This document shows, piece by piece, positions 3,079 to 35,079 of a stretch of DNA of 64,000 bases. The notes under the pieces are model-generated. The model was given only the letters and a program-made list of their open reading frames with translations, ran no database searches and was not told the DNA's origin. Source of the stretch: Armatimonadota bacterium (GTDB taxonomy: Bacteria; Armatimonadota; JAAZEB01); the NCBI GenBank assembly GCA_012512265.1, contig JAAZEM010000118.1, positions 1 to 64,000 of the forward strand. Reading direction: 5' to 3'. Positions within the stretch are counted from its first letter, which is position 1. Every line of letters begins with the position of its first letter. A program made the position numbers and the translations under genes.

Positions 3079-4158
3079 TCAGCGGCCCGATTCCCCCTTT
3101 TTTGGCAGCCGCGCGATCATCTTGCACAGCTTCTTGGCCTGCTGCTTGCGCTCTCGCTCCGCCTTCCGGTCGCGCGTCGACTCCTGGTATGCCAGCTCCC
3201 GACGCATTCGCCGGTAGTTCTCAAACCGCGCCGGATCCAGCGTGCCATCACTCAGTGCCGCTCGGACCCGGCATCCTGGCTCGCGCTCGTGCTGGCAATC
3301 GGCATAGCGACACCCGAACGCCAACTCCTCAATCTCTGGGAACGCCTCCGCGACCCCCTCCCATGCGTCCCCGATCTGCAGCTCCCGTATACCTGGAGTA
3401 TCCACCACGAGCGCGCCCGAAGGGAGGAGAAAGATCTGGCGGGAGGTCGTCGTATGCCGGCCCTTGCTATCGCCGGCACGCACCGGCTGCGTTGACTGTA
3501 CCTCCTCTCCCAAGAGGTGGTTGATCAGCGTCGATTTCCCCACGCCAGATGACCCAAGCAGCGCCAAGGTGCGCCGCGGGACGAGGTATTGGGCAAGCGC
3601 ATCCAGGCCCTCGCCCGTGAGCGCGCTCACCGCGTGGATCGGGGCGATCCCAGCCACCGCCCGTGCCTCGGCAAGCCGCTCCTCGAGCTGCGAACAGAGA
3701 TCCGCCTTCGTGAGCAGCACCACTGGATCGGCGCCGCTCTGCCAGGCGACCGCCAGGTAGCGCTCGATGCGGCGCAGGCGGTAGTTGTCATCCAGGCCAA
3801 CGGCCAGGAAAAGCGTGTCGATATTCGCGGCCACCGGCTGCTCGCCAGGCTTGGTCCCAGCCTCCTTCCGCGACAGCCAGCTCCGACGCGGCAGAATGCC
3901 GTGTACCAGCGCCTTTGGCGGCTCTTCAGGAAGTATCTAAAGGATGACCCAGTCGCCCACGACCGGCAGCTCGTCTCGCCGCGTGGCGGCATGCAGCACC
4001 TTGCCGGGCAGGATAGCCGCCATCTCCCCGGCCTCCGTTTGCACCCGGTACTGGCCCTTATGCTCGGCGATCACTCGTCCGGGCACATGATCCTCGCCCG
4101 CCTGCGCCGCGAAATGCCCGGCGTAGAACCCGCTCCATCCTAGCGCATCCAACCGCAT
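3079..4158 (-). pseudogene. rsgA: Ribosome small-subunit GTPase RsgA, intact except for one in-frame TAG at codon 74
   Basis: The full frame of 360 codons reads as RsgA (YjeQ): an N-terminal OB-fold to GDWVIL, the circularly permuted GTPase with LLTKADL (G4), SALTGEG (G5), GSSGVGKST (P-loop) and DTPGI (G3), and the C-terminal zinc motif with CRYADCQHEREPGC. RsgA helps mature the 30S subunit. A single TAG at 3937-3939 follows GDWVIL; the same frame resumes at once with ILPEEPPKALVHGILPRR, which is what an RsgA linker looks like. Nothing else is damaged. From the last in-frame ATG at 3834 a 251-residue GTPase without the OB-fold could still be made. It is either a young pseudogene, a sequence error or a suppressed codon. 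Confidence 0.88.
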
Positions 4159-9625: not shown

Positions 9626-9860
9626 TGGGATTCCGGCATAAGGAATCCGAAGCCTGGGAGGCAGCGCGCAACCCGGCGCGCGGCGATAAATCACCGCGCT
9701 GCTTGCGAGCGAAGCCCTGCCGGGCTGGGTTGGGGATACTCCCAGATGTCTCAAAACGGCAGTAGCTGAGAGGAGAAGCACCGAAGGGGCTTTGCCGGAA
9801 AGCAGCGCGGAGCTTCGAGCTCCGCGCGCGCGGGCGCCCTCTCCTTATGCCGGAATCCCA
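9626..9860. mobile_element. 235-bp MITE-like element with perfect 19-bp terminal inverted repeats
   Basis: TGGGATTCCGGCATAAGGA at 9626-9644 is the exact reverse complement of 9842-9860. No gene lies between. Inside are two inverted copies of CCGCGCTGCTT...AAGCCC (9693-9717 and 9787-9811); a third relative lies at 25570-25594. No transposase is in the window and no clear target duplication is seen, so mobilisation in trans or a large structured intergenic repeat are both possible. It separates the lipoprotein terminator from the response-regulator gene. Confidence 0.65.
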
Positions 9861-22718: not shown

Positions 22719-23858
22719 TCAGGCGCTGCCACCCCCGGGCTGCTTCCGGCGGCGATAGGCCTCGCGCACGGCATCAATGGGCGACATTTTGCCCGTAGCC
22801 GGATCGCGCAGGTACCAGTGCTCCCATCCGTTGCACGCGGGAAGCTGGCCGGCGCGCCTTCCCATCGCATGGATCGACCCGGCCTCGTCGCCCAGACGCA
22901 CCCGGCCGTCGGGGAGAACGAGCGCGGTGATATCCGACCGGCGGTTGAAGTGCAGGGTTGTCCCAGGCGGAATGAGGCCCTCAGATACGAGCGTGGAGAA
23001 GGGGATGCGCGGCAGGCGGCGGCGTTCTACCACGTGGCTATCGGGAAGCCCCTCGGGCTGCACCGCCTCGATGCGTGCGCGCGCCGCTTCGATGTAGGTC
23101 TCGTCGCGCTCGATGCCGATCCAGTGCCGACCCAGGCGCTTCGCCACCGCGCCCGTGGTGCCGGTGCCAAAGAAGGGATCCAGAACCACATCGCCCGGGT
23201 TGGAGGAGGAGAGGATCACCCGGCGCAGCAGCTCCTCCGGCTTCTGTGTGGAGTGTAGCTTTCGGCCATCGGCTTGCAGGCGCTCTTCCCCCCGGCAGAC
23301 CGGGATCAGCCAGTCACTGCGCATCTGCGTGCCACCGTTCAGCTCCTTCATCAGCTGATAGTTGAAGGTGTAGCGCTTCTGCCGTTCCGACTTTTTGGCC
23401 CAAAGCAGCGTCTCATGGGCATTCGTGAAGCGCACCCCGCGGAAATTCGGCATCGGGTTCCGCTTGATCCAGACGATCTCGTTCAGAATCCAATAGCCAG
23501 TATCCTGAAGGAGGGCACCCACGCGATGGATGTTGTGGTAAGTGCCGATCACCCAGAGCGTCGCGGTCTCCTTCATCACCCTGCGGCAAGCGCGCAGCCA
23601 CTCCGCGGTGAAGGCGTCGTACTCCGCGAAGCTCCCGAACGAGTCCCAGGCATCATCCACGCCATCCACTCGAGTCAGGTTCGGGCGCAGCAGCGTCTCC
23701 TCCCCCAGCTGCAAGTAGTAAGGCGGATCGGCGAAGACCAGGTCCACGCACTCCTCGGGGAGTTCCTGGAGCACCTGCCGGCAATCGCCCTGGAGGATCA
23801 CATCTAGCGGGAGGGGCACTTGCGAGGTGCGGCTCGGCAAAGGCGCTACTCCTTCCAC
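22719..23858 (-). CDS. ccrM: CcrM-type adenine DNA methyltransferase
   Basis: 379 residues. The beta-class N6-adenine methyltransferase order is visible: catalytic DPPYYLQL at 44-51, then WVIGTYHNIHRVG, NPMPNFRGVRFTNAHETL, MRSDW, HSTQKPE and the SAM motif DPFFGTGTTGAVAKRLG. The last 80 residues (FSTLVSEGLIPPGTTL ... GSIHAMGRR ... CNGWEHWYL) match the C-terminal domain special to CcrM. The family methylates GANTC; no restriction partner is beside it, so it is an orphan. GTG at 23858 overlaps a GGAAGGAG site; TTG at 23840 with that site 8 bases ahead is likelier as the start. Confidence 0.88.
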   Translation of the reverse strand: MEGVAPLPSRTSQVPLPLDVILQGDCRQVLQELPEECVDLVFADPPYYLQLGEETLLRPNLTRVDGVDDAWDSFGSFAEYDAFTAEWLRACRRVMKETATLWVIGTYHNIHRVGALLQDTGYWILNEIVWIKRNPMPNFRGVRFTNAHETLLWAKKSERQKRYTFNYQLMKELNGGTQMRSDWLIPVCRGEERLQADGRKLHSTQKPEELLRRVILSSSNPGDVVLDPFFGTGTTGAVAKRLGRHWIGIERDETYIEAARARIEAVQPEGLPDSHVVERRRLPRIPFSTLVSEGLIPPGTTLHFNRRSDITALVLPDGRVRLGDEAGSIHAMGRRAGQLPACNGWEHWYLRDPATGKMSPIDAVREAYRRRKQPGGGSA

Positions 23859-28491: not shown

Positions 28492-30015
28492 CTACTTCGC
28501 GTACTCGACCATGCGCGTCTCACGGATGACGGTCACCTTGATCTGACCCGGGTATTCCAGCTCGGATTCGATGCGCTTCACGATGTCTCGCGCGAGTTTG
28601 GCGGCGCCCTCATCAGTCACCCGGTCCGGCTTCACCATCACCCGAATCTCCCGGCCGGCCTGCACGGCGAAGGTCTTCTCCACCCCATCGAACGAATCGC
28701 CCAGCTGCTCCAGAGTTTCCAGACGCTTGACGTAGGTCTCCAGGCCCTCGCGACGGGCTCCGGGACGCGCGGCGGAGATGGCATCGGCGGCCTGGACCAG
28801 AACGGCGTAGGCGCTGTCCTGGTCCACATCGGCGTGGTGCGCGGCAATCGCCTGGACCACCTCGCGCGGCTCGCCATGCTTGCGTGCGAGGTCGGCACCG
28901 ATCGTCGCATGCGGGCCATCCGTCTCGAAATCGACCGCCTTGCCCAGGTCGTGAAACAGGCCGGCCCGCTTGGCGAGGAGAGGATCCAGGCCCAGTTCAG
29001 AGGCCATGGCGGCCGCCAGATAGGCGACCTCCATCGAGTGCTTCAAGACGTTTTGCCCGTAGCTGGTGCGGTAGCGCAGCCGGCCGAGGATCTTGATCAG
29101 CTCCGGATCCACGCCAGAGAGTCCCGTATCCAGGATGGCGCGCTCGCCGGCCATCTTGATCTCCTGCTCTACCTGGGCGCGCGCCTTCTGCACCATCTCC
29201 TCAATGCGCGCGGGATGGATCCGGCCGTCAAGCACCAGGTTTTCGAGGGCAATGCGCGCGATCTCCCGCCGGACCACATCGAAGGCTGAGATGACGACCG
29301 CCTCGGGGGTGTCGTCGATGATCAGGTCGACACCGGTGAGCGTTTCAAAGGCGCGGATGTTGCGGCCCTCGCGGCCGATGATGCGCCCCTTCATGTCGTC
29401 GTTGGGGAGCGTGACGACTGAGACCGTGGTCTCCGCGGTCTGGTCCACGGCGCACTTCTGGATCGCCAGGGTGATCACCTTGCGCGCGCGCTGCTCGGCC
29501 TCTTCAATCGCCTCGGCCTCAATCGCTTTCACCAGGCGGGCCGCGTCGAGCTGGCACTCCTCTTCCACGCGGCGAAGGATGATTTGACGGGCTTCCTCGG
29601 CAGGAAGCTGAGCCACGCGCTCCAACTCCTGGCGCTGAGCCTCTACCAGGCGGCTTGCCTCCTCGTGCAGGCGGTTTGCTTCTTGCTCTTTCTGTTGGGT
29701 CTGGCGCTCGCGGCGCTCCAACGCGGCCTGGCGGCGTTCAATATTCTCCTCACGCTGGCTAATCCGCCGTTCCGAGCGCTGCAGATCGGCGCGGCGCTCG
29801 CGGATTTCGCGTTCCGCCTCAGTGCGTAGGCGCTGAATCTCCTCGCGTGCCTCGAGGATCGCCTCCCGCTTTTTCGCTTCTTTCTGCTCTTCCGCTTCCT
29901 CTAGGATCCGATCCGCCTCTCGCTCCTTTAGGCGAAGGTTCATCAACGCTCGAAAATAGACCAGAAAGAGGAAGAAGATAATGAGAGATACCTGGACCAG
30001 TTCCCACTTGCCCAT
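28492..30015 (-). CDS. rny: Ribonuclease Y
   Basis: 507 residues with the four-part RNase Y layout: an N-terminal membrane anchor ([15 protein letters not shown]), a long charged coiled coil to about residue 190, a KH domain ([17 protein letters not shown]) and an HD domain with [10 protein letters not shown]. It is a membrane-bound endoribonuclease that starts mRNA decay. Directly downstream of recX and thpR on the same strand, the usual neighbourhood, though recA is missing from it. Very secure. Confidence 0.97.
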
Positions 30016-30214: not shown

Positions 30215-30844
30215 TCACTCGGGAGGAAGGACCATACTCAGTACTCTTGAGATCGTTTCGTATGCAAAGCCCCGCCTTTGCAGGAACAGGGCAATCTTCC
30301 GGCGCTGCACCTCCGGCGCCTCATCGCGGAGCCGTTCGTAGCGGCGCTGCGCCACTTGGAGGGCGAGGGGATACTCCGACTCCTCGCCAATCTCTGCCAG
30401 GCTCTCTTCCACCACCTGAGGCTCTATGCCCCGCGAGCGAAGCTCCCACTCGAGACGGCGCCGGCCCGACCGGCCTGAAGAGATCCGGCTACGTACAAAG
30501 GTCTCGGCAAACTGCCGGTCATCCACCAGGCCAGAACCACGCAGGTCAGCCAGAGCGCGCTCGATGACCTCATCCGTAAACTGCTTCGCGCGCAATCTGC
30601 TTCTCAGCTCCGCTTCGCTGTAAGCCCGGTAGGAAAGAAGCCGAAAGAGCGATTCCTTGGCGCGCCGCAACTCCGTGGCGGCGATCACGGCCTCCAGACG
30701 CTCTGGAGAGAGCTCCTGGCCCACCGCAAGGCGGTATGCGACCACCTCATCGAGGCTGACGCCAAACGCGTACTCGCCATCGATGAAGACCGACCGACGC
30801 CGCTTATTGCGCGCCTGCTCCTTGATATCGGTTATGACGGGCAC
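30215..30844 (-). CDS. recX: RecA regulator RecX
   Basis: 209 residues with the three tandem helical repeats of RecX: RLLSYRAYSEAELRSRLRAK, then ALADLRGSGLVDDRQFAETF, then ALFLQRRGFAYETISRVL. RecX caps or disassembles RecA filaments. GTG start at 30844. It normally follows recA, but here the upstream neighbour 54 bases away is thpR. Confidence 0.92.
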   Translation of the reverse strand: MPVITDIKEQARNKRRRSVFIDGEYAFGVSLDEVVAYRLAVGQELSPERLEAVIAATELRRAKESLFRLLSYRAYSEAELRSRLRAKQFTDEVIERALADLRGSGLVDDRQFAETFVRSRISSGRSGRRRLEWELRSRGIEPQVVEESLAEIGEESEYPLALQVAQRRYERLRDEAPEVQRRKIALFLQRRGFAYETISRVLSMVLPPE

Positions 30845-30898: not shown

Positions 30899-31498
30899 CT
30901 ACTCCCTGGCAAGTGGAAAGCACTCTATCGGCGTATAGATGGGGCCGGAGCGGCGCAGCTCGCTTTGCATCAGGACCACGTTCTCCACTGTGATCGTGGC
31001 AATCTCCGCCCCTTCGGCCTCTGCCATGATCGCCGCGCTCAGCCCAGATGGGGCGGGTGACGCCTTCACACGCCCGATGGTCAAGTGTGCGCGGAATGGC
31101 CGCTCCTCTGGCGCGAAGCCGCTTGCAACGGCGCTTTCCTCGGTAATGCGCGCCAGCTCTTCCAGACGGCTCTTCCCCTCGCTCACGCCCACCCAGATCG
31201 CCTGGGGCCGACGCGCGCTCGGGAACGCGCCCACACCAGCCAGCGTCAGCGAGAACGCCTTTTGATCAGAGAGGGTTCGAAGGAGGGTCTGAGCAAGACG
31301 CTGCACAAGCTCGGGAGGGCTGTTGCCGAGGAAACGCAGCGTGACGTGGAAATTCTCTGGTTCGACCCACTTCACTCCTGCAAAGCCGCGCAGTCGGCGC
31401 TGGACCCCTTCCACGCACGACCGCGCATCCTCGGGAAGAGGCACCGCCACGAACGCACGGATCGCCCCTTCGCCGCTCCAACGCTGATTTATGCCCAC
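30899..31498 (-). CDS. thpR: RNA 2',3'-cyclic phosphodiesterase
   Basis: 199 residues of the 2H phosphoesterase family, with the two catalytic motifs HVTL (near residue 51) and HLTI (near residue 135) and RAFVAVPLPE at the N-terminus. It opens 2',3'-cyclic phosphates to 2'-phosphates. GTG start. In many genomes it sits with cinA, recA and recX. The 253 bases upstream (31499-31751) show no gene. Confidence 0.92.
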   Translation of the reverse strand: MGINQRWSGEGAIRAFVAVPLPEDARSCVEGVQRRLRGFAGVKWVEPENFHVTLRFLGNSPPELVQRLAQTLLRTLSDQKAFSLTLAGVGAFPSARRPQAIWVGVSEGKSRLEELARITEESAVASGFAPEERPFRAHLTIGRVKASPAPSGLSAAIMAEAEGAEIATITVENVVLMQSELRRSGPIYTPIECFPLARE

Positions 31499-31751: not shown

Positions 31752-32222
31752 TCACGGGTTGAAAGGCACCGATGGCAGACCCGAAGCGTCTGGAGCCGCG
31801 ACGCGGATCTCGCGCTCGACCCGGTCGGATTGGACGCCCGCGACATCTGTTGCGAAGACGGAGAGCCTGTAGTGAACCGGCTGTCCATCGGGGCGCGTGT
31901 TGGCTGGCACATCGACCGATGTCTGATACACATTCGCCCCGCCAGTGACAGGCACGAGAGGATAGAGCTTCGTCTCCGGTTTCTGCGTGTTCAGAAGAGA
32001 TCTTTCCGCGGTGACGGCATGGATAGCCCGCTCGCTGTCAACCGTCACGCGAAGGGTTATCTTCCCTCCATCAAAGCTGAAACGAAGATCCTCAGGGGTA
32101 ATCTCAACACTCCGGAGCACCGGCGCCTGCTGGGTCATGCGAACAGTGGCGCTCGACCCTCCACATCCGGGAAAAAGCAGGATTGATGTGACGAACGCTG
32201 CGGCGAGCGGCAGCCATTTCAT
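31752..32222 (-). CDS. Small lipoprotein of unknown function
   Basis: 156 residues from ATG 32222, 8 bases after AAAGGAG. The signal peptide ends in a lipobox (ILLFPGC). The mature part is beta-rich, with ITLRVTVDSERAIHAV and VHYRLSVFATDVAGVQS, like a single Ig/fibronectin-type domain. Its promoter is a full-consensus site 320 bases upstream beside the iteron array. Confidence 0.72.
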   Translation of the reverse strand: MKWLPLAAAFVTSILLFPGCGGSSATVRMTQQAPVLRSVEITPEDLRFSFDGGKITLRVTVDSERAIHAVTAERSLLNTQKPETKLYPLVPVTGGANVYQTSVDVPANTRPDGQPVHYRLSVFATDVAGVQSDRVEREIRVAAPDASGLPSVPFNP

Positions 32223-32541
32223 GCAGTACACTCCTTTCCGACGCCGTAGCGAGTGTAACCCTCATCTGGCCTGTGCGCCAGGATCACGATCACCGGCTGG
32301 CAGCCAGGCGCCGGATTCGCCGAACCCTCGGTGCCGACAGCAAGACCACCCTATCCGGGAAGATACACCGGGTAATCCGTGGAGAGTGCGGCACGGCCAT
32401 CCGGAAAACCCTGGCCAAAGCCGGTCCAGCCCGCCCTCACGCCGGATCCCCCCCTGGCCATCTCGATGCCAGGGCAGGGCCTCTTTAGCAGCGACCACTC
32501 CAGAAGGAGAATACCTGCCGGAGTGCCAATCGCCTGCGCGT

Positions 32542-32625: not shown

Positions 32626-33285
32626 AATCATGTGTTTTCGAACAAGCCGCTGTGCAGCCACAACCCGCGCATGGATCGACCGGTCGTGCAGCCGCATTTT
32701 GACAAGAGAGTGACAGGAATAGTGTGCTATGAGACAACTGAGGAGGGGGCGTCACTGGGCAATGCTGTGTTTCGGGACAAGAGCGCGCCTCGTGGCGCCT
32801 TTTCGCCAGGCTGGCTCGCTAGATGAGGGAACTCAATAGTGTGTTTTCGGACAACTCGAACGGGCCCGGCGGGTCGATCCCGCGCACGCTTCCGGCGAGA
32901 CCGGAGTCCGCCGACGCCAGATCAGCCTGCCAGCACCCGTCCAGCGACGATCCCGCCCGCCGGGGTGCCGGAGAAACGCCGGAATCTTGCTCCAAAAGCC
33001 GGCGAACAGCCCCAAAATAGTGTGTTTTGGAGCAGTACGCCACCATTTGCCCCCGATTCGGCCCCGAAACCGCCCCCGTCTACCGCCCGGGTACGGTAGA
33101 ATAGTGTGTCACCGAGCAAGCGCCGGTCGAAGGCACACTTCTGTTCCCTGTGCCTTCGGGCAAGGAATACCGTGTTTCGGGGCAAGGGAATACCGTGCTA
33201 CCGAGCAGGGAGTGCTGTGCTATGGGACAATTCGGCCGGCGAATATAGTGTGCTTTCAGACAACGAAAGCTGTGTTTTCAAGCAA
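32626..33285 (+). repeat. Array of about 12 direct 20-bp iterons, candidate replication origin
   Basis: Copies of a motif close to AATAGTGTGTTTTCGGACAA, all in the same direction, begin at 32626, 32718, 32761, 32835, 33016, 33100, 33144 (weak), 33166, 33189, 33211, 33244 and 33266. The core GTG(T/C)T and the ending RRCAA are constant. The last six are spaced 22, 23, 22, 33 and 22 bases, about two or three helical turns. They lie directly upstream of a RepA-type initiator gene. This is the layout of iteron origins, where initiator binds repeats to open DNA and to repress its own gene. Classical DnaA boxes were not seen. Confidence 0.85.
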
Positions 33286-33465
33286 ACGAGGTTTTCACGA
33301 ACCCAATAACGACGCGGCTTCCAGCCATCTTCGCCGCCGTCTGAATTTGCAGACAGAGGCCTTGATCAACACTATCTGATCAGGGCTGGTGGTGATGCTC
33401 CTCAATTAGGAAGAGGGAAGCTGTCACCCTTGTGATTCCGAGTAGTTCGTACGGGAGAGCGAGCC

Positions 33466-34878
33466 ATGACGAAGAAGGAGCCCGAGACCGTGCTACAACC
33501 TGTTGGCAAAGACGAGATGAATCTGGCGGAGTATCCCTTCACGCTCCTGACACGGCGCGTCTCCGAAAACCAGAAGACCATCGAGGTGCAGCAACAGGTG
33601 CGCACAGAGACCGGCGAGGTGATTACCCAGAGTTGGGTGGTTACCGGAAGCGACCGCTATGGGCTGCCTCTCGCCATCGATGAGGATATCTACATCGCCC
33701 TGATGAAGATCCTGAAAGACGGGGGTTTCCGCGACCGAACCATCCCCTTCACGCGGTATCAGATCCTGCGGATCCTCGGCAAGGATATCTCGAAGCGGGA
33801 GTACGATCGCATCCAGCAGTCGCTGGACCGCCTCGTCGGCACCACGATCACTTCGAAAAACGCCTTTTGGGACAACCGCACCCGCTCCTACGTGAGTAAG
33901 GCGTTCCATATCTTCGAATCGTACGAACTGTATCGCGAGCAGCCGGGCCGAAAGAGCGCGCGTTCGCCAGAGCTGCCGATGAGCTACGTGGTCCTCAGCT
34001 CCTTCCTCTTCGAGAGCGTCAAGTCAGGCTACGTCAAGAACCTGGATATCGAGTTTTACCTCAGCCTGCGCACGCCACTTGCCAAACGCCTCTTCCGTTT
34101 TCTGGATAAGAAGGCGTACAACAACCGGACCTTCGAGATCGGAGTGATGCGCCTGGCAGAGAAACTCCCAGTTCACGACGCGTTCCCCTCGCAGGTGAAG
34201 CGACGCCTCGAAGAGCCCCACAAGGAGCTGATCGAGAAGGGCTTCCTGGCCGAGGTGAACTACGCCCGCCGTCGCGACGGCGAGGAGAAGGTCATCTACA
34301 CCTTCAAGCGCCCGCGGATGAATGCCGAGGAAACGCTCACTCCCCTGGGCGATCCCACCGTCGAGATGCTGGTCGCGCGCGGAATCTCGCGCTCGGCCGC
34401 CGAAGAACTGGCAGCGCGGTTCAGCGAGGAGCATATCCAGAAGCACGTCGATGCCTTCGACCAGCTCTGCGCCGAGGAGAGCCCGCGCATCCGCCGTAAC
34501 CCGGCCGGCTACCTGCGCCGGGCAATCGAGGAGGACTACGCGATTCCCGAGCCACGCCGGCCGAAGCCGACCGCGCGCGCTACCTCTGCCAAGAGCGCCG
34601 ATGAAAAGCCGGCCGGGACGCGCGTCCGCAAGCGACCGGCGGGCGAGAGTGGGGCGGCAGTTCGCGACGTCGAGGAAGCCCCGCTGGCTCCGCGATCGCG
34701 CGAGGGGATCGATCCCGAGCGTCTGGAGACTCTGCGCGAGCGGGCCCGACAAATGGTGCTGGAGCGGTATCCCGTGCTGGCCCAGCGCTCCACCAGTCCC
34801 GCGTTCGATGTGATGGTGGATGCGTGTCTCGATGAGATCCTAGCCGTCGAGGGCCCCGCGACGCTAGCCGCCGAGTAG
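33466..34878 (+). CDS. repA: Replication initiator protein (RepA/RPA family)
   Basis: 470 residues. The N-terminal two-thirds follow the replication initiator protein A family: MNLAEYPFTLLTRR near residue 18, PLAIDEDIYIALMKI, the winged-helix-like FTRYQILRILGK and SREYDRIQQSLDRL, and YVKNLDIEFYLSLRTPLAKRLFRFLDK. The C-terminal third has helical ISRSAAEELAARFSEEHI, a basic Arg/Lys/Pro linker and a final helical part. Relatives are known from plasmids and some chromosomes. Iterons 180 bases upstream are the likely binding sites. Initiation at this locus is inferred. Confidence 0.88.
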   Translation: MTKKEPETVLQPVGKDEMNLAEYPFTLLTRRVSENQKTIEVQQQVRTETGEVITQSWVVTGSDRYGLPLAIDEDIYIALMKILKDGGFRDRTIPFTRYQILRILGKDISKREYDRIQQSLDRLVGTTITSKNAFWDNRTRSYVSKAFHIFESYELYREQPGRKSARSPELPMSYVVLSSFLFESVKSGYVKNLDIEFYLSLRTPLAKRLFRFLDKKAYNNRTFEIGVMRLAEKLPVHDAFPSQVKRRLEEPHKELIEKGFLAEVNYARRRDGEEKVIYTFKRPRMNAEETLTPLGDPTVEMLVARGISRSAAEELAARFSEEHIQKHVDAFDQLCAEESPRIRRNPAGYLRRAIEEDYAIPEPRRPKPTARATSAKSADEKPAGTRVRKRPAGESGAAVRDVEEAPLAPRSREGIDPERLETLRERARQMVLERYPVLAQRSTSPAFDVMVDACLDEILAVEGPATLAAE

Positions 34879-35004: not shown

Positions 35005-35079
35005 GCCCCGTTCGTCTAGAGGTCAGGACACCAGATTTTCATTCTGGCGGCAGGGGTTCGATTCCCCTACGGGGTACCA
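35005..35079 (+). tRNA. tRNA-Glu (anticodon TTC), CCA encoded
   Basis: A 75-base cloverleaf: acceptor GCCCCGT/ACGGGGT (first pair G-U), D-arm TCGTCTAGAGGTCAGGACA, anticodon stem CCAGA/TCTGG around TTTTCAT with anticodon TTC, T-arm AGGGGTTCGATTCCCCT, then A and CCA. It lies 126 bases after repA. Confidence 0.97.

Follow-up and report, generated by a model that had tools for sequence, protein, structure and literature searches.

Does an iteron array that lies among chromosomal genes, next to the gene of a plasmid-type initiator, work as a replication origin in an Armatimonadota bacterium, and if so, to which replicon does it belong? The locus is carried by a draft Armatimonadota MAG (5.03 Mb in 219 contigs, 97% complete, 6% contamination), and the window analysed here is the first 64 kb of its 72,959-bp contig C56. 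Three genera of one family were compared: the source genome (G000) and its relatives G203 and G204. A weight matrix was trained solely on the iterons of G203 and G204 and then run on the 64-kb window. At 10 bits or more, it found 12 sites in the array, starting at positions 32626, 32718, 32761, 32835, 33016, 33100, 33144, 33166, 33189, 33211, 33244, and 33266, of which the one at 33144 is weak (13 bits). At 14 bits or more, the array has 11 sites and the rest of the 64 kb has 0 on both strands. Thus, the original prediction of about twelve same-direction repeats 5′ of the initiator gene was correct: twelve 21-bp repeats (consensus AATACTGTGTTTTGGGGCAAG) lie at 32626-33286, on the + strand only, 5′ of repA. 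The predicted start of the array (32626) stands, while the predicted end (33285) does not, since the array reaches about 33286. A find-repeats analysis gave one family of 10 copies in 32626-33284 and further, overlapping families, and a comparable repeat has 9 copies in the array versus no more than 3-4 copies in shuffled 1-kb sequences. The iteron array is real and far beyond chance.

The array consists of two parts. The proximal core (33144..33286, + strand) holds the last six iterons at distances of 22, 23, 22, 33, and 22 bp, as expected from the predicted 22-33 base spacing. Read from the sequence, these distances are whole turns of DNA, which would put the six sites roughly on one face of the helix. 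Regular spacing is limited to this part; the six distal iterons (32626..33120, + strand) are irregularly spaced. A same-direction array that adjoins an initiator gene and is phased by whole turns has the features of an iteron origin. By analogy with iteron plasmids and Vibrio ori2, the proximal six are the probable replicative core, and the distal six are probably a copy-control or titration part. Between the iterons and repA, the three-genus alignment revealed a conserved element at 33340..33400, CTGAATTTGCAGACA followed by CAACACT and the palindrome CTGATCAG, which is a possible repA promoter or operator. No obvious AT-rich unwinding element was found beside the iterons, where the GC content falls slightly, to 42% in a single 50-bp bin (33251-33300). 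No DnaA box was found within one mismatch between 17.3 and 34.1 kb of the window, in agreement with the earlier reading of the locus. The gene at 22719-23858, 9 kb from the origin, encodes an adenine methyltransferase that resembles CcrM, has a RAMA domain and scores below the cut-off of the NCBIfam equivalog. Methylation control of the CcrM type was rejected, since the array has no conserved GANTC sites.

What kind of protein is the initiator? The repA gene (33466..34878, + strand) is intact and present as a single copy in the genome, and encodes a 470-aa replication initiator protein A. As predicted, it is an RPA protein, matching PF10134 with E=2.6e-20 and 73.4 bits against a curated cut-off of 27. 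Its named database relatives, at 73-74% identity, are from Armatimonadetes MAGs, and its closest relatives outside the phylum include plasmid initiators of Planctomycetes, Rubrobacter, Deinococcus, and Thermus. A phage origin of RepA was considered and rejected, because neither viral contigs, searched with one peptide pattern only, nor phage records contain a relative. At the sequence level, RepA matches none of the solved structures, RctB included. An AlphaFold2 model was obtained with a mean pLDDT of 75 and a C-terminal linker of low confidence. The best fold match of this model is to domains 2-3 of RctB, with E=2e-9, a TM-score of 0.65 normalised by target length, and 14% sequence identity. 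The fourth, weaker match is 9yzm, a RepE-type co-crystal entry, presumably of RepE54.

The surroundings look chromosomal. As originally described, 12 of 13 genes over 16.3-32.2 kb run leftward and all genes up to 42.4 kb run rightward, and rny, recX, dapA, pta, and tRNA-Glu had all been named correctly as neighbours. On the left side, a lipoprotein-like gene (31752..32231) lies directly beside the array, followed by a LigT-like 2′,5′ RNA ligase gene (30899..31498), recX (30215..30844), and rny encoding RNase Y (28492..30015). These four genes are on the - strand and are conserved neighbours in G203, with 82% identity for rny. The gene for tRNA-Glu(TTC) at 35005..35079 (+ strand) is the sole copy found in the genome. 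What defines a chromid is a plasmid-type origin combined with core genes (PMC6090056). Both are present here, the RepA/iteron system being of plasmid type and rny, recX, dapA, rsgA, and tRNA-Glu being core genes on the repA contig. The G+C content of this contig (about 65%) also agrees with a chromid, since the contigs with recF and dnaA have mostly 64-70%, and trivially so if all are one molecule. The rsgA gene is apparently split in the window (3079-4158) into two ORFs, one for the GTPase part (3079-3834) and, upstream of it, a short one (3937-4158) resembling the RsgA N-terminus, which looks like a frameshift, a sequencing error or a pseudogene. A dispersed intergenic repeat with the small palindromes CGGCGATAAATCACCG, GCTTTGCCGGAAAGC, and GGAGCTTCGAGCTCC occurs on several contigs, with copies at 9681-9823 of the window, at 7509-7651 of C99 (L131), at L128:16704-16846, and at about 8993-9291 of L061.

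Is the locus conserved in the family? An intact repA gene was found in all three members examined, one copy in each, at 75-77% identity. In a comparison of proteins from the same genomes, RepA (73-76%) is better conserved than DnaA (57-64%), and it is also better conserved than RecF (69%). All three genera have iterons directly 5′ of repA, 12-14 per array. The array region itself has diverged between the genera to about 70% mean column identity, and the proximal spacing of 22-23-22-33-22 bp is identical in G000, G203, and G204. G203 and G204 have distal repeats as well, in roughly the same number but with a spacing that is irregular and not kept. Outside the family, most matches of the G203/G204 matrix are at repA loci in families f40 and f42, and the few others are scattered single sites; thus the initiator and its repeat appear to have co-evolved. 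On the other source-genome contigs scanned, the matrix has 0 matches. The conservation points to strong selection for a functioning origin that, by the same analogy, would have a core part and a control part. Since the spacing is kept, RepA is conserved and its modelled fold resembles RctB, the locus has been selected and is most likely a working iteron origin. I infer from these sequences, as close to certain, that it is a conserved iteron/RepA origin, and the array geometry kept across three genera supports the original prediction of such an origin in chromosome-like surroundings.

Does the main chromosome start from this origin, as was also suggested? A whole-genome scan for TTNTCCACA gave 63 scattered sites and one cluster. 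This sole cluster of DnaA boxes, three within 58 bp (C86:32269-32326), is 5′ of recF and of dciA, which encodes the helicase loader, and G203 has similar boxes upstream of recF. Thus, the check for a second oriC with DnaA boxes gave a candidate on another contig. Most other families of the phylum have DnaA-box clusters at dnaA, and dnaA and recF are close together in several genomes of families f40-f45. In the family studied here, dnaA is apart from both the DnaA boxes and recF (L061:9359-10732 on C114; also L100 and L101). On sequence grounds, the recF-dciA cluster is a candidate for oriC at the expected position, from which dnaA may have moved away. GC skew was computed on selected contigs of the source genome as the original prediction had proposed. 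It does show a weak inflection at 33 kb (-0.025 on the left of repA and +0.003 on the right), but the minimum of the contig is at 53.9 kb. After correction for gene strand, the effect of the repA side has a t of about 1.4-2.0. The skew at the recF oriC is equally weak, but there the DnaA boxes are no more than 1 kb from the cumulative minimum of the contig. GC skew is weak on all source-genome contigs examined, too weak to decide between the readings, and marks no clear origin at repA.

The partition genes bear on the number of replicons. Two ParABS systems with different parS sites were found in the family. In the source genome, canonical parS (at most two mismatches) occurs only on C32 beside ParAB1, with 0 control matches. 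ParAB2 is encoded on C99 (operon at L130:9770-12867) and has orthologues in G203 and G204 (L133 and L134). It has its own 16-bp palindrome, GTGAACCCGGGTTCAC, whose exact and one-mismatch copies occur only on the parAB2 contigs in three of three genomes; at two mismatches a control pattern matches too, and only exact and one-mismatch copies were counted. One copy lies inside parB2. ParA1 is nearer than ParA2 to the solved Soj proteins. A parS1-like site is conserved beside parAB2 and could place ParAB2 on the primary chromosome. In families f40-f45, a ParA gene lies within about 10 kb of repA in 13 of 15 loci, an arrangement that gives repA the look of a self-maintaining replicon. Distant-family repA genes (about 9100-9400 of L078, on C91 of G001; L077, on C28 of G003) have strong but different upstream repeat arrays, with ParA/ParB nearby. 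In the three genomes compared, no contig joins repA to ParAB2, and the family's own second ParABS is off the repA contig. The pairing of repA with ParAB2 is a guess. The ParA tree with all rows gave no resolution; after long branches were dropped, the support was 94/94 and the rival topologies were not rejected (p-AU 0.14), so the pruned tree is suggestive. Linking repA to ParAB2 by gene neighbourhood was also tried and discarded, since the sole shared gene type, an E1 dehydrogenase (38-53%), is likely paralogous.

Taken together, it is fairly probable that replication of a secondary chromosome (chromid) starts at the locus, a reading absent from the original prediction, and that this replicon carries core genes, among them the sole tRNA-Glu gene. 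Two replicons are favoured because the two ParABS systems differ in their parS sites and because parA lies near repA in other families. I infer the following scheme. RepA, as a winged-helix initiator, would bind the six phased proximal iterons 5′ of its own gene and open the DNA, allowing the helicase to be loaded, and the six distal iterons would bind RepA and thereby limit re-initiation. The iteron origin would drive an independent second chromosome in this Armatimonadota family, with the repA contig belonging to this separate replicon, and replication of the primary chromosome would be started by DnaA from a different oriC, the one 5′ of recF-dciA.

The core-gene-rich repA contig also fits a primary chromosome. 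One main chromosome may then have both the DnaA-type oriC and the iteron origin, the latter as a second active origin or as the trace of an old chromid that was fused. The sole tRNA-Glu among core genes, the divergence of gene orientation around the array, and the order rny-recX-LigT-lipoprotein-iterons-repA common to two genera (the source genome and G203) agree with such a molecule. Against it, the two ParABS systems, both conserved and each with its own type of parS site, point to two replicons, and in other parts of the phylum repA and parA are linked. To my knowledge, naturally fused two-origin chromosomes are rare. I regard this arrangement as possible but unlikely, and hold the same doubt about its more specific form, in which the recF-dciA oriC and an active iteron/RepA origin have been kept on one chromosome across at least three genera. 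Could RepA instead be the principal initiator of the main chromosome, with DnaA in a minor or regulatory role? At dnaA, none of the three family members has a DnaA box when up to one mismatch is allowed, and perfect TTATCCACA sites number 13 in 5.03 Mb, close to the 8 of a reversed-pattern control. However, DnaA retains its ATPase and DNA-binding domains, and Fimbriimonas, another member of Armatimonadota, is likewise reported to have few DnaA boxes and separated dnaA, dnaN, and recF genes (PMC4072686). A main chromosome starting only at repA is unlikely because of the conserved DnaA-box cluster upstream of recF-dciA, near which the skew of that contig also has its minimum. This part of the original prediction is weakened by that cluster, and a principal role of RepA is very unlikely.

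The other possibility raised at the outset was that an iteron plasmid had integrated beside tRNA-Glu, which would make the locus a degenerate leftover. RPA proteins are typical of plasmids, and repA adjoins the tRNA gene in the source genome. However, tRNA-Glu and a HAD hydrolase gene are close together in all three genera and adjoin repA in the source genome only. In G203 and G204, tRNA-Glu is on other contigs, unlinked to repA; an HD-domain gene lies 3′ of repA in G203 and the same gene does so in G204, whose left flank is different. Thus, the junction with tRNA-Glu arose after the origin unit did. In addition, no 12-mer of tRNA-Glu recurs in the contig as an att-like repeat, and no integrase or transfer gene was found among the neighbours scanned. 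Since the origin unit predates the junction and tRNA-derived repeats are lacking, integration at tRNA-Glu is not supported, and with an intact repA and an exact array geometry in three genera, a degenerate leftover is highly improbable. The plasmid initiators among the closest relatives outside the phylum might also suggest an ordinary dispensable megaplasmid. I give this the least credence, since the contig carries the sole tRNA-Glu and core genes and the locus has been conserved vertically in three genera with shared flanking genes.

Four kinds of known system come closest to the locus. In ori2/RctB of Vibrio cholerae chromosome 2, an iteron array likewise adjoins the initiator gene, replicative and control repeats are combined as is supposed here, the initiator shares the modelled RepA fold in its domains 2-3, and the replicon carries core genes and has a separate ParABS for the second chromosome, as may be the case here. 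In contrast, RepA and RctB do not match at the sequence level, no site of the 39-mer or crtS type was recognised at the Armatimonadota locus, the repeat sequence differs, and the phylum is another one. The RPA (PF10134) megaplasmids of Thermus and Deinococcus, such as T. thermophilus pTT27, have a similar initiator that is annotated as replication initiator protein A. In pTT27, repA is followed by parAB, and parA is likewise near most other Armatimonadota repA loci. Unlike pTT27, the present family has no parAB near repA and the locus has core-gene surroundings, and the identity over the matched part is only 27%. In cisII/cisMP, about eleven 18-bp iterons form the origin of a secondary replicon, and DnaA boxes serve the separate chromosome I (PMC7671480). 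An iteron array is proposed here in the same role, but the cisII/cisMP array is upstream of parAB and bound by DnaA and ParB, whereas the Armatimonadota array is upstream of repA and without DnaA boxes. RepE (mini-F) and other iteron plasmids also combine a winged-helix initiator with phased direct repeats; the present locus differs from them in its larger array, chromosomal neighbours and vertical inheritance across genera.

Thus, the kind of system is known, and what would be new is the lineage and the presence of an RPA initiator on what may be a second chromosome in Armatimonadota. A 2018 review placed iteron chromids in beta- and gammaproteobacteria and noted that chromids can carry core genes (PMC6090056), and a census of complete genomes found chromids in eight phyla, Armatimonadota not among them (PMC12456017). 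If the origin is in the main chromosome, the family would have a rare natural two-origin chromosome. If the second chromosome is confirmed, it would add one more phylum and one more initiator family to the chromids, and would mean that an uncultured lineage has maintained a second chromosome vertically for a long time. It would also offer an independent system for the timing of two origins, one driven by DnaA and the other by an RctB-like initiator.
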